Shown: positions 3 through 54,250 of the stretch, one piece after another
How the letters are laid out: the number at the start of each line of letters is the position of its first letter
Numbering within the stretch: position 1 is the stretch's first letter
DNA from: a virus
IMG/VR virus record: IMGVR_UViG_3300047297_000301
Location: 35,691-99,690 of that record
Reading direction: 5' to 3' (one strand)
DNA: 64,000 nt
The notes under the pieces: model-generated
Told to the model about the DNA's origin: nothing
The model's database searches: none
The model's input: only the letters and a program-made list of their open reading frames with translations
Position numbers and translations under genes: made by a program

Positions 3-662
3 ATTCAATTTTGGAATATGTTAATGGGCGACGGGTATAGTAACGCTAGTGCTACCACTGAGCGTATGCAAGGAGCTGACTCAGAAAATGAGTTACCCCG
101 TAGATTACAATTTGCAAGCGGTAATCGTGTAGGGTATATGCGCGACGTATTTCACTATGATAATAGTCAAGGCGAACCAGGACATACTCTTAGATGTCTG
201 CCCATTCGTAATACTAATTCAGGTAGTGTTTCGGTAAGTGTAAGTGGTGTTGTATCTAATTATTGGAGTAGTGGCCAAGAGGGTGCTCAAATAGCTTACT
301 TTACTCCTAATGCTGGTAAATATAGTACAGTTACTGCTGTAACTGGAACAAGTGTGGCTAACTTAACTAGTAATAATATTAGAGCAAAAGAACTAACAGG
401 ATCAGTAACTATTCCTGGAAATACAACCGTACTAGTTACCTTAACTAGTACTGACTGGTATGAAACTACGTATCGATTTAAAGACTGCAACTATTTTTAT
501 AAGTTACACGAAACTTTTACGGGAACTAATGGAGTAATTTGTGATATGCGTATGTTATCACATTTAGCTCGCGGAAGACCTTATTTACCATATACAGGAA
601 GTTTAGCTACTGCTTTAGCTCCATTATGGACAACTTGCGCAACGCAGTATGGAGATAGATAA
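3..662 (+). CDS. virion/tail-associated protein, 5' end cut by window edge
   Basis: The reading frame is open to the first base of the window, with in-frame codons before the first Met at 18, so the gene most likely starts upstream and only its last ~220 residues are seen. The visible part is rich in Ser, Thr, Asn and Gly with beta-prone stretches, typical of a phage fibre or decoration domain. It overlaps the next gene by TAATG. No specific family recognised; the role is inferred from composition and from its place before fibre genes. Confidence 0.6.
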   Translation: MQFWNMLMGDGYSNASATTERMQGADSENELPRRLQFASGNRVGYMRDVFHYDNSQGEPGHTLRCLPIRNTNSGSVSVSVSGVVSNYWSSGQEGAQIAYFTPNAGKYSTVTAVTGTSVANLTSNNIRAKELTGSVTIPGNTTVLVTLTSTDWYETTYRFKDCNYFYKLHETFTGTNGVICDMRMLSHLARGRPYLPYTGSLATALAPLWTTCATQYGDR

Positions 663-1039
663 TGAGTGCAAATATAATTGAAAACTTAACAGTATGTGAA
701 ATAAAGGAGATCATTAGTACTCCTACATTTCAAACAAATACTTTTTCACTAACAGATTCTTGTACTTTTTACATAACTAGTAATCCTGGTAGTACTGTAA
801 ATCTAACTAATGTTAGCTTAACTTCAAATGGTGTAATAACAGTTACTTTTATTAGCCCTAATGGAAGTATGGTAATACCTAGTACACTAACTGTTAACGG
901 TACTGGAGTAAGTATTAAATGGCAAGGCGGCACCGCTCCTAGCCAAAGCAGTAATCAAATTCAACTAGTAGTATTTTCTATAATTACTTTGAATAATGCT
1001 GTAGCACATGTAATTGGTGCAAAATCAAACTATAATTAA
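662..1039 (+). CDS. hypothetical beta-rich virion protein
   Basis: 125 residues. The start overlaps the previous stop (TAATG), implying translational coupling. The sequence is Thr/Ser/Asn/Val-rich without charged helices, compatible with a small beta-sandwich head or tail accessory protein. No family recognised. Its position between two fibre-like genes supports a tail-end structural role, as inference only. Confidence 0.55.
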   Translation: MSANIIENLTVCEIKEIISTPTFQTNTFSLTDSCTFYITSNPGSTVNLTNVSLTSNGVITVTFISPNGSMVIPSTLTVNGTGVSIKWQGGTAPSQSSNQIQLVVFSIITLNNAVAHVIGAKSNYN

Positions 1040-3027: not shown

Positions 3028-3694
3028 ACTAAAAGCTCATGCAGCGGAATTGGAAACAATTCTTGCTGCACGAGCTTTTCCTTTGCCAACAGAGTACGAT
3101 TCTGGTTGGTACACTAAGAATTTTTCTAGTGCTTGGATCCGACGTGGTAACTTAGATGTTATTGACGTGTCAGAATCCAAAAAACTTTATATGATGCACT
3201 TGTGTATATTCCCGCACGTTTACGATGCAGCCCCTATTTACGGCTTTGACATTGTAGCAGGAACAAATAAAATCACAGGAGCGTTTTTAGATTTTTCACC
3301 TACAGGCGACCCTGAGCACCCAATGTGCAAATGGTTTCAAGAGTTTGTAGAACCTACTTCGTGGGCAAAACCACGAGAGCTGCCTGAATGGGCACGAAAT
3401 ATATTTTCAAACCGCATGGTTGCAGCAGGTAATATTAATACTGATTTTGAACTTGCAGTTATACTAGAGATTTCAAAGAAGTCGTTAATTTACTACTTGG
3501 ACAGTATATCAAAATATCGTCCAGCACTAAAATACGAAGATATGGTAGCACAACATAATTTTACTGAAAAGCAAAATTATTACTGTCAGCAACAAAAATG
3601 TAACCCACATACTCCACGAGTATTGAAAACACTAGGATTTAACGATGATCAAGTACATGAGTACATACATAAAGAACTATTTCCTGAAGTATGA
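3008..3694 (+). CDS. ferredoxin-dependent bilin reductase (PebS/PcyX/PcyA family)
   Basis: 228 residues. The core HLCIFPHVYDAAPIYGFD then IVAGTNKITGAFLDFSPTG is the diagnostic central sheet of ferredoxin-dependent bilin reductases (pattern FP...PIxGxDxV....xxDxSP). Asp95 occupies the conserved substrate-protonating Asp position. The family reduces biliverdin to phycoerythrobilin, phycocyanobilin or related bilins. Product class cannot be told by eye; viral four-electron enzymes (PebS, and PcyX from uncultured marine viruses) are the nearest precedent. The start ATG lies inside the end of the heme oxygenase gene, so substrate supply and use are coupled. No phycobiliprotein, bilin lyase or ferredoxin gene is in the window, so electrons and any acceptor protein would come from the host or from elsewhere in the phage. 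Confidence 0.85.
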   Translation: MSTIFSKLKAHAAELETILAARAFPLPTEYDSGWYTKNFSSAWIRRGNLDVIDVSESKKLYMMHLCIFPHVYDAAPIYGFDIVAGTNKITGAFLDFSPTGDPEHPMCKWFQEFVEPTSWAKPRELPEWARNIFSNRMVAAGNINTDFELAVILEISKKSLIYYLDSISKYRPALKYEDMVAQHNFTEKQNYYCQQQKCNPHTPRVLKTLGFNDDQVHEYIHKELFPEV

Positions 3695-16277: not shown

Positions 16278-16732
16278 GTTACAAATACTGGCTGCTCCCA
16301 CTTTAACCAATCTTCTAGCAGTGCTGCATAGAATTCATGATCTTCGTGGTTATAGTAAAGGCAACGATAGTTTTGTGAATTAGGCATTTCATCAAAAGCA
16401 ACAAATACTTTGCTGCGATCAAATTTAAAAATCAGTAAAGGTTTTTTGCCTACTTGCTTACCCTGACGAGTAGTCTGTTGCCAGAATTCTACTAGTTGCG
16501 GAGTCTTGGATGTTAGTAAGTGTGAAGTAAGGTGGTCTTCCGCATAGCCTTTAACTTCTACACACCAAAGGTTGGTTCGCCCAGGAACGTATAAATCGCC
16601 CTTAAGCTGATGTTTAGGGTCAAGAGCACCTGATCCAGGTACTCTTTCCCAAGCTAGACCAGTGTGCTTTTTGAGTAGATCACGAACTGTGGTCTCTGTT
16701 CTAGCACCTTTGGCTCTAGGATCCACTGCCAT
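16274..16732 (-). CDS. PD-(D/E)XK nuclease, Holliday-junction-resolvase-like
   Basis: 152 residues from the ATG at 16732, which overlaps the upstream stop by TAATG. The order KGARTETTVRDLL, WERVPGSGAL, KGDLYV, CVEVKGY matches archaeal Hjc/phage resolvase-type endonucleases (E...GSG...D...ExK). It probably cuts branched recombination or packaging intermediates. The neighbouring gp46/gp47 pair fits a recombination role. Substrate is inferred. Confidence 0.65.
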   Translation of the reverse strand: MAVDPRAKGARTETTVRDLLKKHTGLAWERVPGSGALDPKHQLKGDLYVPGRTNLWCVEVKGYAEDHLTSHLLTSKTPQLVEFWQQTTRQGKQVGKKPLLIFKFDRSKVFVAFDEMPNSQNYRCLYYNHEDHEFYAALLEDWLKWEQPVFVT

Positions 16733-33927: not shown

Positions 33928-34003
<76 letters not shown>

Positions 34004-34013
34004 GACTCGTTTG

Positions 34014-34087
34014 TGGAGCGGGATATCAGGCTCGAACTGATCTCTCTAGTTTGGAAGACTAGGGCACAACCCCTATACCAATCCCGC
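34014..34087 (-). tRNA. tRNA-Gly (TCC)
   Basis: 74 nt. Acceptor GCGGGAT / ATCCCGC, anticodon loop CTTCCAA in stem CTAGT/ACTAG, T-loop TTCGAGC, encoded TCCA end. Reads GGA. Confidence 0.88.
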
Positions 34088-34192
34088 TTATACTTCTAGT
34101 GGTAGTACTTTTACTTGTACAAACCCGTATTCATCAATTTTCCATACTAATACTTCATAAATATTAGCTGTGGAATATTTAAAAGGGGACAT
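34088..34192 (-). CDS. 34-residue hypothetical peptide
   Basis: Short frame MSPFKYSTANIYEVLVWKID... with RBS GGGAGAG; it overlaps the upstream gene end by 14 bases and stops at the tRNA-Gly start. The tight fit supports it weakly. Confidence 0.4.
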   Translation of the reverse strand: MSPFKYSTANIYEVLVWKIDEYGFVQVKVLPLEV

Positions 34193-34439
34193 CTTTGCTC
34201 TCCCAAGGTTCGACTTCGTTTTTGTAATGTTCTTCGACTTCTTTAAATCCTGCACGAGATAATAAATCAGTCATAACAGGAGTTGTAAAATTTACAAACC
34301 CTTGTTTGTTAAGCCAAATAAGATATTCAAAATCATCTGCTATAATATCACATACTCTACAACCAGCAAATTTGCCCATTGTTAGCTTATCTAACATATC
34401 TAGCTTATTAGATTTTAAATTACCAAATGTTTTTGCCAT
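34179..34439 (-). CDS. small conserved phage protein with LTMGKFAG motif and SSB-like C-tip
   Basis: 86 residues from the ATG at 34439, which overlaps the upstream stop by TAATG. The core LTMGKFAGCRVCDIIADD then FEYLIWLNKQG matches a small domain (LtfGkhkG....vi..Dp.YLiWl) found in exodeoxyribonuclease-X-like and many phage proteins. It ends in WESKDVPF, like the SSB tail DDDIPF that recruits replication partners; the tail's role here is inference. Confidence 0.6.
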   Translation of the reverse strand: MAKTFGNLKSNKLDMLDKLTMGKFAGCRVCDIIADDFEYLIWLNKQGFVNFTTPVMTDLLSRAGFKEVEEHYKNEVEPWESKDVPF

Positions 34440-34597
34440 TACCAATGCCTTATAACGCCTGCTACAATAAACAAGTTTGTTACTATGTAAGTAAGTACAA
34501 TTATAGTACGAACTATGGCTACTTTATCTGCTTCACAGTCCGTGTTACCAGATTTTTCGCCTAGTGCTTTACTCCACAACCGCCACAGATTCTTCAT
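34439..34597 (-). CDS. small membrane protein (52 residues)
   Basis: MKNLWRLWSKALGEKSGNTD... with a basic N-terminal helix and one transmembrane segment near residues 28-48 (TIIVLTYIVTNLFIVAGVI). Start lies inside the end of the ClpP-like gene; stop overlaps the next start (TAATG). The layout fits a small membrane protein seen in several phages. Confidence 0.6.
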   Translation of the reverse strand: MKNLWRLWSKALGEKSGNTDCEADKVAIVRTIIVLTYIVTNLFIVAGVIRHW

Positions 34598-35159
34598 CTA
34601 ATTCCTGCTGTGCAGCCGCTTTAGCTAATAGTAAATCAATTCGTGCCATAACTTGTTCTGAAGTCATCCAAATATCTTTGTTGTGCAACATAGATTGAAT
34701 TTCATCTGGTGTTAAAAAGTCTTTGTATACTTCGCTTAAGAAGTTCTCACTCCAAGCACGTTCGAACTGAAGTTGGTCAAACATTTCTCCGCCTTTGCCG
34801 AACACACCTGCTGAATAATTGTGAAACATAAATAGTGAATGAGGGGTTACTTCAAACTCATCTCCGTGTAAAAATACCATTGTTGCAGCACTCATACAAG
34901 CACCCTCTACCGAAGTAATTACATGAGCATCTGTTTCTGACATAACGCGTAAAAATTGTAGTGCAGTATATAAATCACCGCCACTACTATTAATATAGAT
35001 TTTAACTGTGTCTGTGCTACGAGCATTACGAATAGTGTCAAACCACTCTGTATACTCACTAGCTTCTTCAATTTCGCCAGACAGATAGAATTCATAAATG
35101 TTACCAGTATTTTTAGTAAAATACTGTTTACCTAATGTAATTTTTGCTTCATCTATCAT
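34569..35159 (-). CDS. ClpP-like serine protease
   Basis: 196 residues. ClpP/crotonase-fold features: YINSSGGDLYTALQ (oxyanion loop), EGACMSAATMVFLHG with the nucleophile Ser, and HSLFMFHNYSAG with catalytic His. Host ClpP works with ClpA/ClpX; phage copies may process head proteins or modify host proteolysis. It lies in the tRNA/early region, not the head module (a separate prohead protease is at 63457). Confidence 0.75.
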   Translation of the reverse strand: MIDEAKITLGKQYFTKNTGNIYEFYLSGEIEEASEYTEWFDTIRNARSTDTVKIYINSSGGDLYTALQFLRVMSETDAHVITSVEGACMSAATMVFLHGDEFEVTPHSLFMFHNYSAGVFGKGGEMFDQLQFERAWSENFLSEVYKDFLTPDEIQSMLHNKDIWMTSEQVMARIDLLLAKAAAQQELDEESVAVVE

Positions 35160-35170
35160 TTATATTCTCT

Positions 35171-35710
35171 TTAATTTGTTGTAACAGTATTAAATACTAT
35201 TACTGTTTTTCTATTATCACTAATATTTAGTGGTGACCTATGCCATAATATTGAAGGCATAGTAAGTATTGATCCTTCATAAATGTCTGGTATCAGTATT
35301 GAATTGTCTTCATTTAATATTTCGGTTTTAGTATCGTTATTAGGTAGTTCTAGATAATATATATTAGTCCAATTTACTTCACCATGAATATGCCAGGTAT
35401 GGTAGTCATTTTTATAATATTGCTGAAACCATGAATTATGGTACTTGAATTCAGTAATATTTAATTTCTTATAAACCTTAGACATAGTTTTTGTTAAACT
35501 AGGCTCTAATATTGACCAGTACTTTCTTGCAATATGTCTTGGTAAGTTCCAATCAGTTTTAGATATTACTTCACTACCATTATTATTTTGGTGACTATTA
35601 GGCATTTTGTCGATACTGTCTAATAAAGAACCTTTAATACTGCTGTGCTGTTCAAATCTAGTAACAGCATAAGGGCAATAAATATAACTAACTTTAATGT
35701 CTTCTATCAT
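35171..35710 (-). CDS. 2OG-Fe(II) oxygenase-like protein
   Basis: 179 residues. The double-stranded beta-helix pattern YHTWHIHGEVNWTNIYYLEL ... EGSILTMPSILWHRSP ... RKTVIVFN gives the facial metal site (H-x-H/E plus distal His) and the 2-oxoglutarate-binding Arg. Such genes are frequent in aquatic phages, substrates mostly unknown. A second, distant member is at 40709. Confidence 0.7.
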   Translation of the reverse strand: MIEDIKVSYIYCPYAVTRFEQHSSIKGSLLDSIDKMPNSHQNNNGSEVISKTDWNLPRHIARKYWSILEPSLTKTMSKVYKKLNITEFKYHNSWFQQYYKNDYHTWHIHGEVNWTNIYYLELPNNDTKTEILNEDNSILIPDIYEGSILTMPSILWHRSPLNISDNRKTVIVFNTVTTN

Positions 35711-35716
35711 ATATTT

Positions 35717-35857
35717 TTAGTTAAGTGATTTTAGATATTCTTGGCAAGCTGCGACCCAAGCGACAACAGTCATGTTGTCTGTAACTTGTTCGTAGTTTTG
35801 GATAACCCAATGGCAAATATCTGTAGTTTTGGCATGATAGCCAGGAATTAAGTCCAT
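35717..35857 (-). CDS. 46-residue hypothetical protein
   Basis: Starts at the ATG at 35857 behind RBS AAAGGTAACT, just after tRNA-Cys; longer frames run back through the tRNA and are not credible. Sequence MDLIPGYHAKTTDICHWVIQ..., helical. Confidence 0.5.
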   Translation of the reverse strand: MDLIPGYHAKTTDICHWVIQNYEQVTDNMTVVAWVAACQEYLKSLN

Positions 35858-35871
35858 AGTTACCTTTATAT

Positions 35872-35949
35872 TGGAAGTGCGAGTCAGATTTGAACTGACG
35901 ACTTTCAGGATTTGCAATCCCGTGCATTTGACCACTCTGCCATCGCACT
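35872..35949 (-). tRNA. tRNA-Cys (GCA)
   Basis: 78 nt. Acceptor AGTGCGA / TCGCACT, anticodon loop TTGCAAA, T-arm GTCAG/CTGAC with TTCAAAT loop, encoded TCCA end. The D-loop is rather long. Confidence 0.85.
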
Positions 35950-35955
35950 ATAATT

Positions 35956-36031
35956 TGGGCAGAAGTATGGGAATCGAACCCATATTAACGGAATCACAAT
36001 CCGTGGTGTTAACCGTTACACTAACAACTGC
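35956..36031 (-). tRNA. tRNA-His (GTG)
   Basis: 76 nt including the encoded extra G(-1) opposite discriminator C73, the histidyl-tRNA identity mark. Anticodon loop TTGTGAT in stem ACGGA/TCCGT; D-stem GTGT/ACAC; CCA encoded. The acceptor stem has two U-U mismatches. Confidence 0.8.
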
Positions 36032-36036
36032 GTAAT

Positions 36037-36111
36037 TGGCGGTCTTATGGGGTAACGATCCCCATCTACAGCAGTGACAGTGCTGTGTGCGTCCGTGAAC
36101 ACTTTAAGACC
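36037..36111 (-). tRNA. tRNA-Asp (GTC)
   Basis: 75 nt. Acceptor GGTCTTA / TAAGACC, anticodon loop CTGTCAC in stem CAGCA/TGCTG, T-stem TGGGG/CCCCA with loop ATCGTTA (first T replaced), GCCA end. The 5' end is shared with the inverted repeat at 36110-36213. Confidence 0.78.
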
Positions 36112-36213
36112 ATTTTTTAGTAGCGCCTGGTCGCTAATTCCAGGTCGCCTCAGCGTCAGGGAGGAGAATAACGCTTACATGCAATAGCCAATGAATTCGC
36201 TACTAAAAAATGG
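36110..36213 (-). repeat. 16-bp perfect inverted repeat closing the tRNA-Glu/tRNA-Asp spacer
   Basis: CCATTTTTTAGTAGCG (36110-36125) pairs perfectly with 36198-36213. Between them are smaller hairpins (CCTGG/CCAGG; AGCGT/ACGCT). The arms include the first bases of tRNA-Asp and the CCA end of tRNA-Glu, so the spacer RNA would fold into one long stem joining the two tRNAs. A processing element, structured RNA or MITE-like insertion are all possible. Confidence 0.75.
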
Positions 36214-36286
36214 TGTCCCGTACCAGATTCGAACTGGTGTGCTCGCCGTGAAAGGGCGGTATCCTAGGCCTCTAGATGAACGGGAC
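36211..36286 (-). tRNA. tRNA-Glu (TTC)
   Basis: 76 nt. Acceptor GTCCCGT / ACGGGAC, anticodon loop CTTTCAC in a GC-rich stem with one mismatch, T-arm ACCAG/CTGGT with TTCGAAT loop, encoded ACCA end. Reads GAA/GAG. Confidence 0.87.
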
Positions 36287-36292
36287 TTGTTT

Positions 36293-36376
36293 TGGTACGA
36301 GTAATCGGAGTCGAACCGATACGCTTTACACGGCAGATTTTAAGTCTGCTGGGTCTACCAATTCCCCCATACTCGC
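36293..36376 (-). tRNA. tRNA-Leu (TAA)
   Basis: 84 nt with the longer variable arm typical of class II tRNAs. Acceptor GCGAGTA / TACTCGT, anticodon loop CTTAAAA in stem GCAGA/TCTGC, T-loop TTCGACT, ACCA end encoded. Reads UUA, frequent in this AT-rich genome. Confidence 0.88.
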
Positions 36377-49725: not shown

Positions 49726-50739
49726 ATGCGATATCAAACAAGAACAATTACCCGGGAACTGAAATCTGTGCCATTTGACAAGGCTTTCCGACTCTGTGAG
49801 GATGCAGCGGCCTTGGCGGTTGCAACCCAACAGCAAATCCTAGACGACCAATTTAATGCTGAAGTAGCCAGACTAGAGCAGGAGTATGCAGACTCCCACG
49901 AAGCCCCTAGTGAAACAAGCTTTGCAGATCAAGTTGCTGACCCTAAATTGGACAGACCAAAAGTAGCTAAGCAGGCACGACAAAGGGCTCTTGTAGAAGA
50001 GTTTATTCCACAGTATGGATTGGATACTACCTTGCAATTATATACCATGCCTGAAATTATTCGCTGGATTGCCAGAAACTACTCAGAACAGTGGCTATCG
50101 GAGATTTTAACAGCTGAGGGTCAGATAGATGGTAAGAAAGCAGCTAATGCTATTTTTGACTTCTCTCAAGACTGGGATAAAGGACTCTACTTCTTTTTAA
50201 TGCTAGATGCTAGAAGCAGCTACATTAAAACACAGTACAAAGGCGATGGTAGGAATTACTGTAGTTTAGTTCCCTTAATTCCTTATGCTTTTAAATTACT
50301 ACACTCTATTCCATACTCGAAGTGGGATAAGTCTACTCTTCACATGGTAGTTAATGAAAGTTTATGCAACTCTATGTTATGTGAAGTACCTGAAACAACA
50401 CGAGAAGAGTTACTTGAAATTCGAGAGTTGGGACTAGTATTTAAGACTGGTGAAAAAGCAGGCACAACAAGAAACGCAGCTTCAACATACCGACTAACTG
50501 GTGTTAATTCTACAAAAATCGGTGGATTACCTGAATTAGCACAGACTATGCTCACACAAATCTGGTGTGCTCACCCAACCAATAGAACCAAGTACATGGT
50601 TCTAGACCCACATAACTGGGACGCAATCCCATCCCCTTTAGTTGCAGAGCAGTTGTTTGCACCTATTGTAAAAGAAAAGTCAAGTCGTAAAAAGCCTGGT
50701 TCAGATGATAATAGCTACGACTTACCCTGGAATTTATAA
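49726..50739 (+). CDS. putative replication protein
   Basis: 337 residues from the ATG at 49726 (GAGG 9 bases upstream); a GTG at 49711 is possible. Helical, charged N-terminal ~110 residues, then a conserved-looking middle (DTTLQLYTMPEIIRWIARNY; SQDWDKGLYFFLMLDARSSY) and a winged-helix-like region (ELREL-type LLEIRELGLVFKTGEKAG). It ends DDNSYDLPWNL, like the helicase tail. No known family was recognised. The long regulated leader, the adjacent motif cluster and the shared tail suggest a replication or helicase-loading role, as inference. Confidence 0.5.
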   Translation: MRYQTRTITRELKSVPFDKAFRLCEDAAALAVATQQQILDDQFNAEVARLEQEYADSHEAPSETSFADQVADPKLDRPKVAKQARQRALVEEFIPQYGLDTTLQLYTMPEIIRWIARNYSEQWLSEILTAEGQIDGKKAANAIFDFSQDWDKGLYFFLMLDARSSYIKTQYKGDGRNYCSLVPLIPYAFKLLHSIPYSKWDKSTLHMVVNESLCNSMLCEVPETTREELLEIRELGLVFKTGEKAGTTRNAASTYRLTGVNSTKIGGLPELAQTMLTQIWCAHPTNRTKYMVLDPHNWDAIPSPLVAEQLFAPIVKEKSSRKKPGSDDNSYDLPWNL

Positions 50740-50740
50740 C

Positions 50741-51103
50741 ATGAAGTATACTAAAGAAATCACAGATAAATTGATCACAGACTATAGACTAGGTGTACCT
50801 GTAGCCACAATTGCTACAGAATTAGATGTACCCGAACGTAGTGTTATTGCTAAATTGAGCTCTCTGGGCGTCTACCTCAAAAAATCGTATGTCAACAAGC
50901 GTGGTGAGGTCCCAGTAAAAAAATCCGAGCACATCGAACGCATTGCACAATTGCTGGAGGTAGATGAGGAGACCTTGGAGTCCTTGGAGAAGGTCAACAA
51001 GCAGGTGCTTAAATTAATCGAGCACCGTTTGCAACACTCTGACCCTAAACCGCCCAAATCAGCACAAGCTCGCACAGAATCAGACTTATTTGCACTTAAT
51101 TGA
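50741..51103 (+). CDS. small HTH DNA-binding protein (GcrA-like HTH family)
   Basis: 120 residues from the ATG at 50741, 1 base after the previous stop. N-terminal HTH: ITDYRLGVPVATIATELDVP, then ERSVIAKLSSLGVYLKK; linker with RGEVPVKKSE; C-terminal helix pair (VDEETLESLEKVNKQVLKLI). Same three-part layout as 52421, 53251 and 57033. The HTH recalls GcrA/SANT-type [ST]R.aVigKl.rLG. Probably a repressor or activator of phage promoters. Confidence 0.7.
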   Translation: MKYTKEITDKLITDYRLGVPVATIATELDVPERSVIAKLSSLGVYLKKSYVNKRGEVPVKKSEHIERIAQLLEVDEETLESLEKVNKQVLKLIEHRLQHSDPKPPKSAQARTESDLFALN

Positions 51104-51136
51104 CCCAGAACTGCGCTAAATCGGCCTAATCGAAGA

Positions 51137-51171
51137 AAAGCCCACTTAAATTGCTTTAAGTGGGCTTTTTT
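51137..51171 (+). terminator. intrinsic terminator
   Basis: 14-bp perfect stem AAAGCCCACTTAAA / TTTAAGTGGGCTTT with TTGC loop and T-run; ends the rightward early operon. Confidence 0.92.
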
Positions 51172-51244
51172 GCGTGTGTTTCTCAGGGTGCTGAAACTGT
51201 GTGCATTTGCTGCAGCTTAGGGTCAGAGAGCTGAGAATTCACAC

Positions 51245-51274
51245 TTGACAAGTTTTTGCACTCTAGAGTATAAT
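51245..51274 (+). promoter_or_regulatory. stable-RNA-type promoter A
   Basis: TTGACA, 18-bp spacer, TATAAT (51269-51274) followed at once by GGCGCC. First of five promoters of this type (others 53013, 55369, 56339, 57592). Confidence 0.82.
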
Positions 51275-51280
51275 GGCGCC

Positions 51281-51350
51281 AGCAGCAACCGCAAAAAATT
51301 TTAAGCAAAACAAAAGCCCCTACAACTTTCGCTGTAGGGGCTTTTGAAAT
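51281..51350 (+). ncRNA. short non-coding transcript A
   Basis: From the expected start near 51281 to a perfect 14-bp terminator hairpin CAAAAGCCCCTACA / TGTAGGGGCTTTTG (51311-51346): about 65 nt with no reading frame. Promoter and terminator are only ~40 bases apart, so the product must be a small RNA or an abortive/decoy transcript. Confidence 0.65.
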
Positions 51351-51989
51351 ATCCTTCGAAGTATAGGGAACACCGATATTTTTTAACTCTAGCAGGACTA
51401 TTAAGGTAATCAACCAGCCTGACCCTAAACTGTGGCAGTTGCCACATGCAGCCTTGGGTGATGAATCCCGCGCGAAGCTGTCTAGGTGAGTGTTGCACGT
51501 TTCAGTTTTCAACTGGGAACTCCCTGTCGAAAATATCCGTGGCTAACATAGTTTTGTGTGGTTGCGCACAACTGTTTTTTCAATTATTTTTACGACCCGC
51601 CACAGTTTAGGGTCAGTGATTTCGTGCAGTTGTCTCTGACTGGATATATTTTATGCACCCTCCGCAGTTTAGGGTCATTTCGCACCATTATTTAAGCACC
51701 CGTAGCTAGGTCTTGTGCGCCTTTACAGAATGGTTTGCGCAACACCACTCAGTCGCTAGCGGGATTAGCCCGCATTACAGGATAAGTGTCCTGCTCTTTG
51801 GTTTAGATGATAGCTGTATTTATTTAAGGAGTTCTTTCTCCCCGAGTTCCTATAATATATGTTACTCTGAACCATTTCCTAGTTTAAGTAACGTACTCAT
51901 AGAGGAGTCGGCATGGGATAGAGGCGGGACATGCTGCCTAGTACTACTACTTTCCTAACACCAGCAAGTGGTACACGCTAGGGGTTTCG

Positions 51990-52088
51990 TCCTGACCCTA
52001 AGGTACAGCAGGTTGGGAGTTGGGAACTCTCCGTGACCGTGCTGTGAAGTCTTGGGTTTCGCCGAAATTACATCGGCTCATCAGAGGA
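51990..52088 (-). ncRNA. hammerhead ribozyme (type I layout)
   Basis: Minus strand shows the full conserved core: CTGATGAG (52077-52084), stem II CCGA/TCGG with 7-base loop, CGAAAC (52056-52061), a long stem III with CCCAAG pairing CTTAGGG and ACAGCA pairing TGCTGT, and cleavage triplet GTC (51994-51996). Stem I is TCCT (52085-52088) with AGGA (51990-51993). Cleavage is predicted between 51994 and 51993. Stem I is only 4 bp before an internal loop. Confidence 0.83.
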
Positions 52089-52189
52089 TTATAAAGGGCT
52101 GCAACTTAAGACCTTCAGTCGCAATTAAAAACTTATCCAGTTCTAGGAGAGCTGGTCTTGGTTTACCCATATTCTGCAATTTATAAGTA

Positions 52190-52218
52190 ATTATACACGA
52201 TTTGCACAACTACTTCAA
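52190..52218 (-). promoter_or_regulatory. promoter reading into hammerhead region
   Basis: Minus strand TTGAAG, 17-bp spacer, TATAAT (52190-52195), about 95 bases upstream of the hammerhead. Confidence 0.6.
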
Positions 52219-52360
52219 GTAAGAAATTAGACACTCGTTGCAATCAGACTACTCACAAAACAGACTATTGATAAGTTGAAGATTTGAGGTGAGATTCATT
52301 TGCAGACGGACACCAACTTGCATTGGTATTCATTAAGCCCTTCCCGACTGTCTAATATAT

Positions 52361-52389
52361 ATTATACTTGAAAAACAGTTGAAGATCAA
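52361..52389 (-). promoter_or_regulatory. promoter reading into gene-free region
   Basis: Minus strand TTGATC, 17-bp spacer, TATAAT (52361-52366), between the 52421 stop and the gene-free region; no gene lies downstream for 1.2 kb. Confidence 0.65.
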
Positions 52390-52420
52390 GTCAATATTTT
52401 TTGACCCTCAACTGCTGCAA

Positions 52421-52726
52421 TCAACGCAGGTTTTGGAGGATTGCTTCCAGTACTTCGTGGTTGGCTTTCTCTAGTGAGTCGAAAGTCTCTGGAGCAACAC
52501 CAACTCGGTTGGCGATTGCGTCAACAAGGTCAGCCTTCTTGACACGAGCAACACCAGAGGCTTTGTTCTTGGCTTGGTAAACTCCTTCTCTGGAGAGTTT
52601 TGCTACCACTGAGCGAGTGGTCTTGCCAAACATTGTTGCCAATGTTTCGACAGTAGCGCCAGCTTTGTAGTTGGCAACGAGCTGAGCGGTTTGCTCAGGG
52701 GTATAGTTTACGGGTTGGTTAGTCAT
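52421..52726 (-). CDS. small HTH DNA-binding protein (paralogue)
   Basis: 101 residues from the ATG at 52726 with RBS AAAGGA; an adjacent ATG at 52729 is equally possible. NYTPEQTAQLVANYKAGATV then ETLATMFGKTTRSVVAKLSR form the HTH, then a Lys-rich linker and a helical tail (SLEKANHEVLEAILQNLR). Clearly paralogous to 53251 and 57033, more distantly to 50741. Confidence 0.75.
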   Translation of the reverse strand: MTNQPVNYTPEQTAQLVANYKAGATVETLATMFGKTTRSVVAKLSREGVYQAKNKASGVARVKKADLVDAIANRVGVAPETFDSLEKANHEVLEAILQNLR

Positions 52727-52767
52727 CATATGTCCTTTCAAATGGTTTCTGCGCTGTTTAAGATATA

Positions 52768-53250: not shown

Positions 53251-53571
53251 TTATATTGGCTTTGAATTAGCCAATGCTTCGAAAATCACTTTTAAAGCAT
53301 TTTTATTTGCTTTAGTTAATGATTCAATATCATTTTCGGGTAATCTCAAAATCGCCCCAATAGCGTCTGCGTGAATATCTTTTTTAACCGCAGATTCTCC
53401 GTTTTTGGTTTTATATTCTTTTTTAATATAAACCTTTTCTCGAGATAATTTAGCAACAATACTCCGAACAGTTTTTCCGAGATTATCTGCGATAATCTCG
53501 ACAGATAATCCGCTCTGATAATCAGAGATAATCTGAGCAGTTTGCTCAGGGGTGTAATTAATCGTTTTCAT
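53251..53571 (-). CDS. small HTH DNA-binding protein (paralogue)
   Basis: 106 residues. INYTPEQTAQIISDYQSGLS then VEIIADNLGKTVRSIVAKLS is the HTH; linker KTKNGESAVKKD; C-terminal SLTKANKNALKVIFEAL. Closest to the 57033 copy. RBS GGAGAAAATAA. Codons lean to AT more than in the 52421 copy. Confidence 0.75.
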   Translation of the reverse strand: MKTINYTPEQTAQIISDYQSGLSVEIIADNLGKTVRSIVAKLSREKVYIKKEYKTKNGESAVKKDIHADAIGAILRLPENDIESLTKANKNALKVIFEALANSKPI

Positions 53572-53582
53572 TTATTTTCTCC

Positions 53583-53816
53583 TTAAAATGAATTATATAA
53601 ACCAAGGATATTAGCCAAAAAGAATGTGCCATTAAGGGTAACTAATGATTTATCTTTTCGATAATATCCAACCATTAACCAAGATAATGATCCTATAATA
53701 AAGAAACAATATCCTAGAAAAAATAATTTACTGGCAACAATAAATGCGCCAATAATGCTTGATATAGTCCCAATCCATGAAACTATATTTAGTAATTGAA
53801 TAATATTAAAAATCAT
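53583..53816 (-). CDS. small membrane protein, three hydrophobic segments
   Basis: 77 residues with hydrophobic segments at about 9-27, 30-50 and 57-76 and GYYRKDKSL between. The size and spacing resemble half-transporter (PQ-loop/PnuC-like) proteins, but no PQ motif is present. Overlaps the SprT-like gene by 4 bases. Confidence 0.55.
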   Translation of the reverse strand: MIFNIIQLLNIVSWIGTISSIIGAFIVASKLFFLGYCFFIIGSLSWLMVGYYRKDKSLVTLNGTFFLANILGLYNSF

Positions 53817-54190
53817 GGTTTTACTTTCATATAATGATATGGATTATCTTCTAAACCATAGTTAATCATTATCTCACGCCATTTATTACCATGACCGCAT
53901 TTTGCTTCTGATAATCCAAACAGATTATAATCGGCTTGGTGGATTATCTCATGGGGCAAGATAATATTAGTCATAGTTTTTGCATAATCGGGAGAATATG
54001 TAAAAAACAAATAACCTAATTCAACTAGATTATCTTCCTGATGGCATCTGCCAGCAGTCCGATATAATCTAGCATTAACTTTGATAATCGGAGGATTATA
54101 TTTAGTTAATCGGGGATATAATTCGCACAGATTATCCCAAATAATCAAGGTCTGATTATTTAGTTGTTTTGTAAGCTGTTTTCTGTCCAT
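53813..54190 (-). CDS. SprT-like zinc metalloprotease
   Basis: 125 residues from the ATG at 54190. HEIIHQADYNLFG supplies HExxH, followed by GHGNKWREIM with the third His, as in SprT/Spartan proteases that cut DNA-protein crosslinks. N-terminal helix-strand part fits. A second SprT-like gene is at 56496. Confidence 0.75.
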   Translation of the reverse strand: MDRKQLTKQLNNQTLIIWDNLCELYPRLTKYNPPIIKVNARLYRTAGRCHQEDNLVELGYLFFTYSPDYAKTMTNIILPHEIIHQADYNLFGLSEAKCGHGNKWREIMINYGLEDNPYHYMKVKP

Positions 54191-54250
54191 AGCCAAATTT
54201 TACACGATTTTTAGGGCAAAAACATAGGGGTTTACCCTTGTGGTTTTTTT

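Follow-up and report, generated by a model that had tools for sequence, protein, structure and literature searches.

Does the minus strand of this phage locus, in a region free of genes, encode a self-cleaving RNA, and which transcript would such a ribozyme process? Hammerhead ribozymes are common in phages. The window, i.e., the whole stretch of 64,000 nucleotides analysed here, belongs to a 99,690-base IMG/VR record of a virus that infects freshwater bacteria. The similarity of its terminase to that of Vibrio phage D254 (49.7%) and of its DNA polymerase to that of Vibrio phage pVp-1 (49%) places the phage near the T5-like phages. At the DNA level, the 48.5-56 kb region has no similarity to the isolated phages of the collection.

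The element at the centre of this region is, judged from comparison with relatives, a genuine type I hammerhead ribozyme (HHR) with predicted catalytic activity. The original prediction had placed on the minus strand a hammerhead with its parts in the right order, and every element that it named is present at the positions given, including the A1.1-U2.1 pair in stem I. The type I order, with stem I open and stems II and III closed, is seen both in the covariation of all three helices and in the minimum free energy (MFE) fold, as the isolated 121-nt stretch adopts the hammerhead at its MFE (-32.4 kcal/mol, z -2.07). A full type I descriptor, demanding at least four pairs in each of stems I, II, and III and a UH cut site, matches the real window at this site alone; 400 dinucleotide-shuffled versions of the complete window gave a single match between them (0.0025 expected per window). 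Stem I has four pairs in the window and three in some relatives, so that the activity of the HHR would depend on the tertiary contact proposed below.

Table 1 Features of the HHR and of the surrounding transcription unit.
Feature	Position in the window	Strand	Composition and basis
Distal promoter	52361-52389	-	TTGATC-17-TATAAT; TTGAT(C/T)-17-TATAAT in most relatives
Proximal promoter	52190-52218	-	TTGAAG-17-TATAAT; TATAAT invariant in the 13-way alignment, 17-nt spacing in almost all relatives
Proximal transcription start	near 52183	-	predicted from the promoter
5' structured module	52096-52168	-	GGG...CCC closing, UUAAU linker, covarying hairpin 52123-52100, GCC
Type I HHR	51990-52088	-	sequence; covariation (30 relatives); own covariance model, 64.9 bits; MFE fold
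HHR stem I	52088-52085/51993-51990	-	UCCU/AGGA, A1.1-U2.1 paired
HHR core CUGAUGA	52084-52078	-	sequence
HHR stem II	52077-52073/52065-52061	-	GCCGA/UCGGC, 5 bp; hairpin 52077-52061
HHR GAAA	52060-52057	-	sequence
HHR long stem III	52057-51995	-	ACCC/GGGU, then AAG/CUU and ACAGCA/UGCUGU
Predicted HHR cut site GUC^A	between C 51994 (C17) and A 51993	-	sequence
Predicted 3' cleavage product, 683 nt	51311-51993	-	starts AGGACGAAAC with 5'-OH, ends with the terminator; predicted from the positions of cut and terminator
Conserved 3' RNA core	51753-51843	-	GGAG-AAAGAA-CUCC hairpin, AAAUACAGCUAUC...UCUAA, two covarying hairpins, GCUA/UAGC closing
Long-range helix proposed within the 3' RNA	51421-51614	-	GACCCUAAACUG (51614-51603) with CAGUUUAGGGUC (51432-51421); RNAalifold, close group
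Intrinsic terminator	51311-51346	-	CAAAAGCCCC..GGGGCUUUUG-UUUU; similar terminator in most relatives long enough

Comparison with hammerhead covariance models, which the original prediction had put forward as a check, gave a divided answer: the HHR stays below the gathering thresholds of the Rfam models, and a family-specific model scores it strongly, at 64.9 bits. For the Rfam models, the computational half of what the original prediction had named as refuting it has thus come about. At gathering thresholds Rfam returns no hammerhead in the window or in the relatives, and the window HHR does not reach the gathering score of any of the hammerhead families (RF00008, RF00163 etc.). In a permissive search of 701 bases, the best match was Hammerhead_3 (RF00008) with 20.1 bits and an E value of 0.16, compared with a gathering score of 48.5. 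This match places the element in a type III register, which was rejected because stem III pairs poorly there, whereas in the type I register it pairs fully and covaries. The long insertion in stem III plausibly accounts for the sub-threshold score.

The strongest evidence comes from related phages. The neighbouring 106-aa protein (52421-52741, minus strand), which matches PHROGs of D5-like transcription regulators and DNA-binding proteins, led to 38 contigs as relatives, and in most of those extending far enough the HHR lies downstream of its gene on the same strand. Via the neighbouring protein or the motif, the HHR was traced in about 30 IMG/VR contigs of related phages. Thirty distinct copies were aligned without gaps, with the middle of stem III excised for equal row length. 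The CUGANGA...GAAA core is kept in 30/30 sequences, only the free N7 varying, and the UH rule at the cut site holds in all of them. Over the three stems, 88.1% of the cells are paired, and 14 of the 18 pairs have changed on both sides (shuffled 9.1 ± 1.1; 0/500 shuffles reach 14). The covariation score is 0.438 compared with 0.171 for shuffled alignments (0/500), and sliding the structure along the alignment leaves 24-45% paired. For stem II by itself the paired share is 98%, the alternatives being AU/UA/CG and CG/GC/UA, and the stem I pair beside the cut changes from U-A to A-U in L017, L019, and L030. In addition, an A in the stem II loop (column 25) and an A upstream of stem I (column 3) are invariant. 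Conservation and covariation in the relatives thus uphold the hammerhead identity, the type I topology, and the cut position that had been predicted.

The covariance model R1, built from the HHR relatives with the window itself among its members, finds exactly one strong copy in each of 10 of the 12 IMG/VR records searched whole, and finds none in the T5-like Vibrio phage D254. Scanning by exact pattern, with stem II as it stands in the window, matched no relative, because stem II varies. Three relatives carry variants that, from their sequences, may be weak or inactive: L033 (4811-4916, plus strand) and L042 (about 8095-7945, minus strand) have an additional U separating A9 from stem II, the latter also with an enlarged stem II loop, and L031 (7483-7585, plus strand) has U.U at the base of stem II. 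R1 also detects hammerheads of type I elsewhere: in other phages, in Legionella, and in contigs from archaea. This indicates that the form of the window HHR is the general one of type I. The same stem II loop pattern occurs in at least 120 IMG/VR stretches and in 63 bacterial and archaeal stretches, many of them Legionella, and most of the matches listed fit type I. In the phage contigs L123 and L055, up to eight type I hammerheads are arrayed within 10-12 kb, and others lie in L172, L175, L204, L207, L222, and L223, whose bins are Thaumarchaeota, Nitrosotalea, and Thermoplasmata. A further phage contig with a hammerhead, L061, holds many tRNAs as well as permuted tmRNA (RF04321, 136.8 bits) and beta_tmRNA matches at 524-867 (minus strand).

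The HHR is embedded in a transcription unit conserved along with it. Both minus-strand promoters that had been proposed upstream are found in the window and recur in the relatives: nearly all members have TTGAT/A-17-TATAAT promoters ahead of the HHR, usually two at a spacing of about 171 nt. No ORF of at least 60 aa keeps its position across the relatives' transcription unit, in agreement with the claim of a gene-free region; protein coding by the 3' RNA was rejected on the same ground. When close relatives were compared in a 13-way alignment, the stretch bounded by the proximal promoter and the terminator showed block-wise conservation and indels that do not come in threes. The expected non-coding host transcript of ~1 kb is supported by conservation and covariation in the relatives, with a predicted length of about 0.87-1.04 kb. 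By this comparison the transcript is not featureless but conserved, structured, and built of modules, and it has a terminator of its own. Rfam searches of the window and the relatives returned no family for the transcription unit, tRNA and weak hammerhead matches excepted.

The 5' structured module is present once in the window and as two different copies in many relatives, with the pattern UUAAU-stem-(C)GAA..CUCUA-stem-GCC upstream of the HHR. Among 18 sequences, 97% of its hairpin is paired, 6/6 pairs have changed on both sides, and the covariation score is 1.07 compared with 0.30 for shuffled alignments. The 5' and 3' modules covary independently of each other. The region of the 3' product is also conserved in the relatives, and the fold of the 683-nt RNA has a z score of -4.4, relative to 20 shuffles only. 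In the 3' core (92 positions), 10 of the 17 pairs have changed on both sides among 13 sequences. A model of this core (R2) scores 91.2 bits in the window, 71 bits in L041, and 42 bits in L042. R2 did not find the core in the more divergent of the HHR-bearing relatives (L021-L034, L050 and others), so the 3' RNA diverges fast or differs between lineages. A weak match of R2 in L017 (39 bits, 3255-3351) was rejected, as it lies at the end of a protein gene and over an unrelated hairpin.

In several relatives a tRNA is associated with this arrangement. In L024, L025, L027, L029, and L030 a gap of 5-7 nt separates the end of tRNA-Glu(UUC) from the HHR that follows, and in the divergent L119 the gap is 11 nt. 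A tRNA-Glu lies nearby but further off in L023, L033, L091, and L041; in divergent relatives it sits between the 5' module and the HHR. In the window no tRNA lies beside the HHR, and the 5' module adjoins it; the phage retains tRNA-Glu elsewhere, in a seven-tRNA cluster at 33928-36376 (minus strand) that includes tRNA-Glu(UUC). The relative L041, found via a 342-aa protein on the other side, contains tRNA-Glu and the 3' core, and even an unfiltered search of it found no HHR (best 7 bits). Between its tRNA-Glu and 3' core lies a promoter-like TTGACA-17-TAAACT, which is a consensus match only. This promoter may supply in L041 the 5' end that cleavage would supply elsewhere, and the combination of a 3' RNA, a promoter-like site, and no HHR suggests that it is cleavage by the HHR that defines where the 3' RNA starts.

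Three similar small proteins, all matching PHROGs of D5-like transcription regulators and DNA-binding proteins, are encoded around the non-coding RNA (50705-51103, plus strand; 52421-52741 and 53251-53571, minus strand), and a SprT-like protein (PF10263, 38.6 bits) lies at 53813-54196 (minus strand). Moreover, a motif TTTAGGGTCA, often CAGTTTAGGGTCA, is dispersed over 51040-52411 and scattered beyond it, e.g., at 16613, 32668, 40575, 43828, 49610, and 49938. It occurs at 22 places with at most one mismatch, compared with 5 expected (0/100 shuffles have as many), clusters around the non-coding RNA, and lies on both strands, within and between genes. The 3' strand of the HHR is one copy of it. 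The motif is possibly an operator or a recombination site.

Our preferred reading, to which we give a probability of roughly 0.8, is that the type I hammerhead acts in cis to process a long non-coding RNA of the phage. The sequence, the structure, the conservation, and the transcription signals are the observed parts of this reading; the cutting, the start sites, and a functional 683-nt product are the predicted ones. Transcription of the minus strand would begin at the tandem pair of promoters and stop at the terminator, so that the predicted start sites would yield primary RNAs about 1,040 and 870 nt long. During transcription the HHR would fold with its long stem III loop-closed and stem I open, and the UGNAA loop of stem II would probably dock on the conserved UAA/GACGAA flanks of stem I. 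The ribozyme would then cut once. The 5' fragment, about 190 or 360 nt long, would keep the hairpin module(s) and the ribozyme and end in a 2',3'-cyclic phosphate, and the 3' fragment would be a structured RNA beginning with 5'-OH. The most likely job of the cut would be to give the 3' RNA a defined 5' end, freed of the upstream module or tRNA. The virus thus probably makes its 3' RNA through self-cutting of the transcript. Speaking against processing in cis are the sub-threshold Rfam scores, the four-pair stem I, the 3' RNA of L041 without HHR, and the variant stem II in L033, L042, and L031.

Other explanations of the element have to be weighed against this one. A chance resemblance in a gene-free region would fit the low Rfam scores, but the rarity of descriptor matches in shuffled windows and the conservation of the HHR with covariation in relatives leave it next to no credit, and the comparative data already refute it. 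It is also very improbable that a conserved RNA fold has been retained as a structural domain that no longer cuts in vivo. The long stable stem III, and the relatives with an altered stem II base or without HHR, would suit such a fold; yet 30 diverged sequences retain the core bases and obey the UH rule, and these bases include ones that have no structural reason to persist in the absence of catalysis.

Two further proposals accept cleavage and assign it a different purpose. The HHR may detach tRNA-Glu(UUC) from the long RNA behind it, in the manner of the theta ribozymes that accompany tRNAs in gut phages and have been proposed to trim tRNA 3' trailers (PMC10879173), the tRNA having been lost in the window. 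The short distance between tRNA and HHR in the six closest cases, and the tRNA-Glu nearby in four more relatives, speak for this proposal, but the type I topology would leave the whole ribozyme, ~90-100 nt, on the tRNA 3' end, so that the cut neither makes a CCA end nor, at this distance, could make the tRNA end directly. The window and many relatives have no tRNA at that place, and L041 has the tRNA and no HHR; we therefore regard tRNA processing as unlikely. Alternatively, the ribozyme may be regulated or act in trans, with downstream GACCCUAAACYG copies pairing with the HHR 3' strand and switching it off, or with CAGUUUAGGGUCAGG copies being cut in trans. In line with this, UUAGGGUCAGG is common to the HHR 3' strand and a downstream strand (51432-51418), and complementary copies lie between them. 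However, in L017 and L119 the HHR strand has changed with compensation and the motif match is gone, the trans helices would be short, and beyond the transcript the motif turns up here and there, within genes and on either strand, a pattern suggestive of some other role at the DNA level. Regulation or cleavage in trans is accordingly quite unlikely, and processing of the long RNA in cis remains the reading that we prefer.

Hammerheads are already known in phages and bacteria (PMC3088659, PMC6155905), and the HHR as a ribozyme is an ordinary type I form and a further member of this class. With the type I hammerheads described before from bacteria, phages, and metagenomes (PMC3088659; review PMC6155905) it shares the core, the UH cut site, the open stem I, and the phage location, and with the phage and bacterial matches found here a 5-bp stem II and a UGNAA-type loop. 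Its stem III of ~60 nt differs from the short hairpin of many other matches. In addition, the ribozymes of Perreault et al. 2011 flank prophage genes (PMC3088659), whereas the window HHR lies within a long structured non-coding RNA. Rfam RF00008 and RF00163 represent the same ribozyme class, although the window stays below gathering and has only the wrong-register RF00008 match.

The surroundings of the HHR are the more novel part. Across the phage lineage the HHR occupies the same place in one conserved non-coding transcript, with promoters, a terminator, and a ribozyme-less relative, which makes a role in RNA maturation directly testable. We found no precedent in Rfam or the open literature searched for a ribozyme combined with a long structured RNA and, in relatives, tRNA-Glu, and the open-licence literature yielded no hammerhead in T5-like phages or in a comparable RNA. 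Theta (HDV-like) ribozymes (PMC10879173) are alike in that a self-cleaving ribozyme, predicted here, lies beside a phage tRNA in many relatives. They are, however, of a different class: the theta ribozyme-tRNA unit has an HDV-like fold that cuts at the tRNA 3' end, whereas the fold here is a hammerhead cutting ~90-100 nt from the tRNA end, and the window copy has no adjoining tRNA. GOLLD and ROOL (PMC12286853) are alike in being large structured phage RNAs near tRNAs, but the window and the relatives searched match neither Rfam model, and we found no hammerhead described in GOLLD or ROOL. In its features the host transcript resembles a large, structured phage RNA that has a link to tRNA-Glu and is not yet catalogued. 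We lean slightly towards a new class of phage RNAs that are structured, modular, and large (about 0.9-1 kb), similar to GOLLD and ROOL, in which a built-in hammerhead would mature the RNA off the upstream tRNA-Glu or hairpin module.
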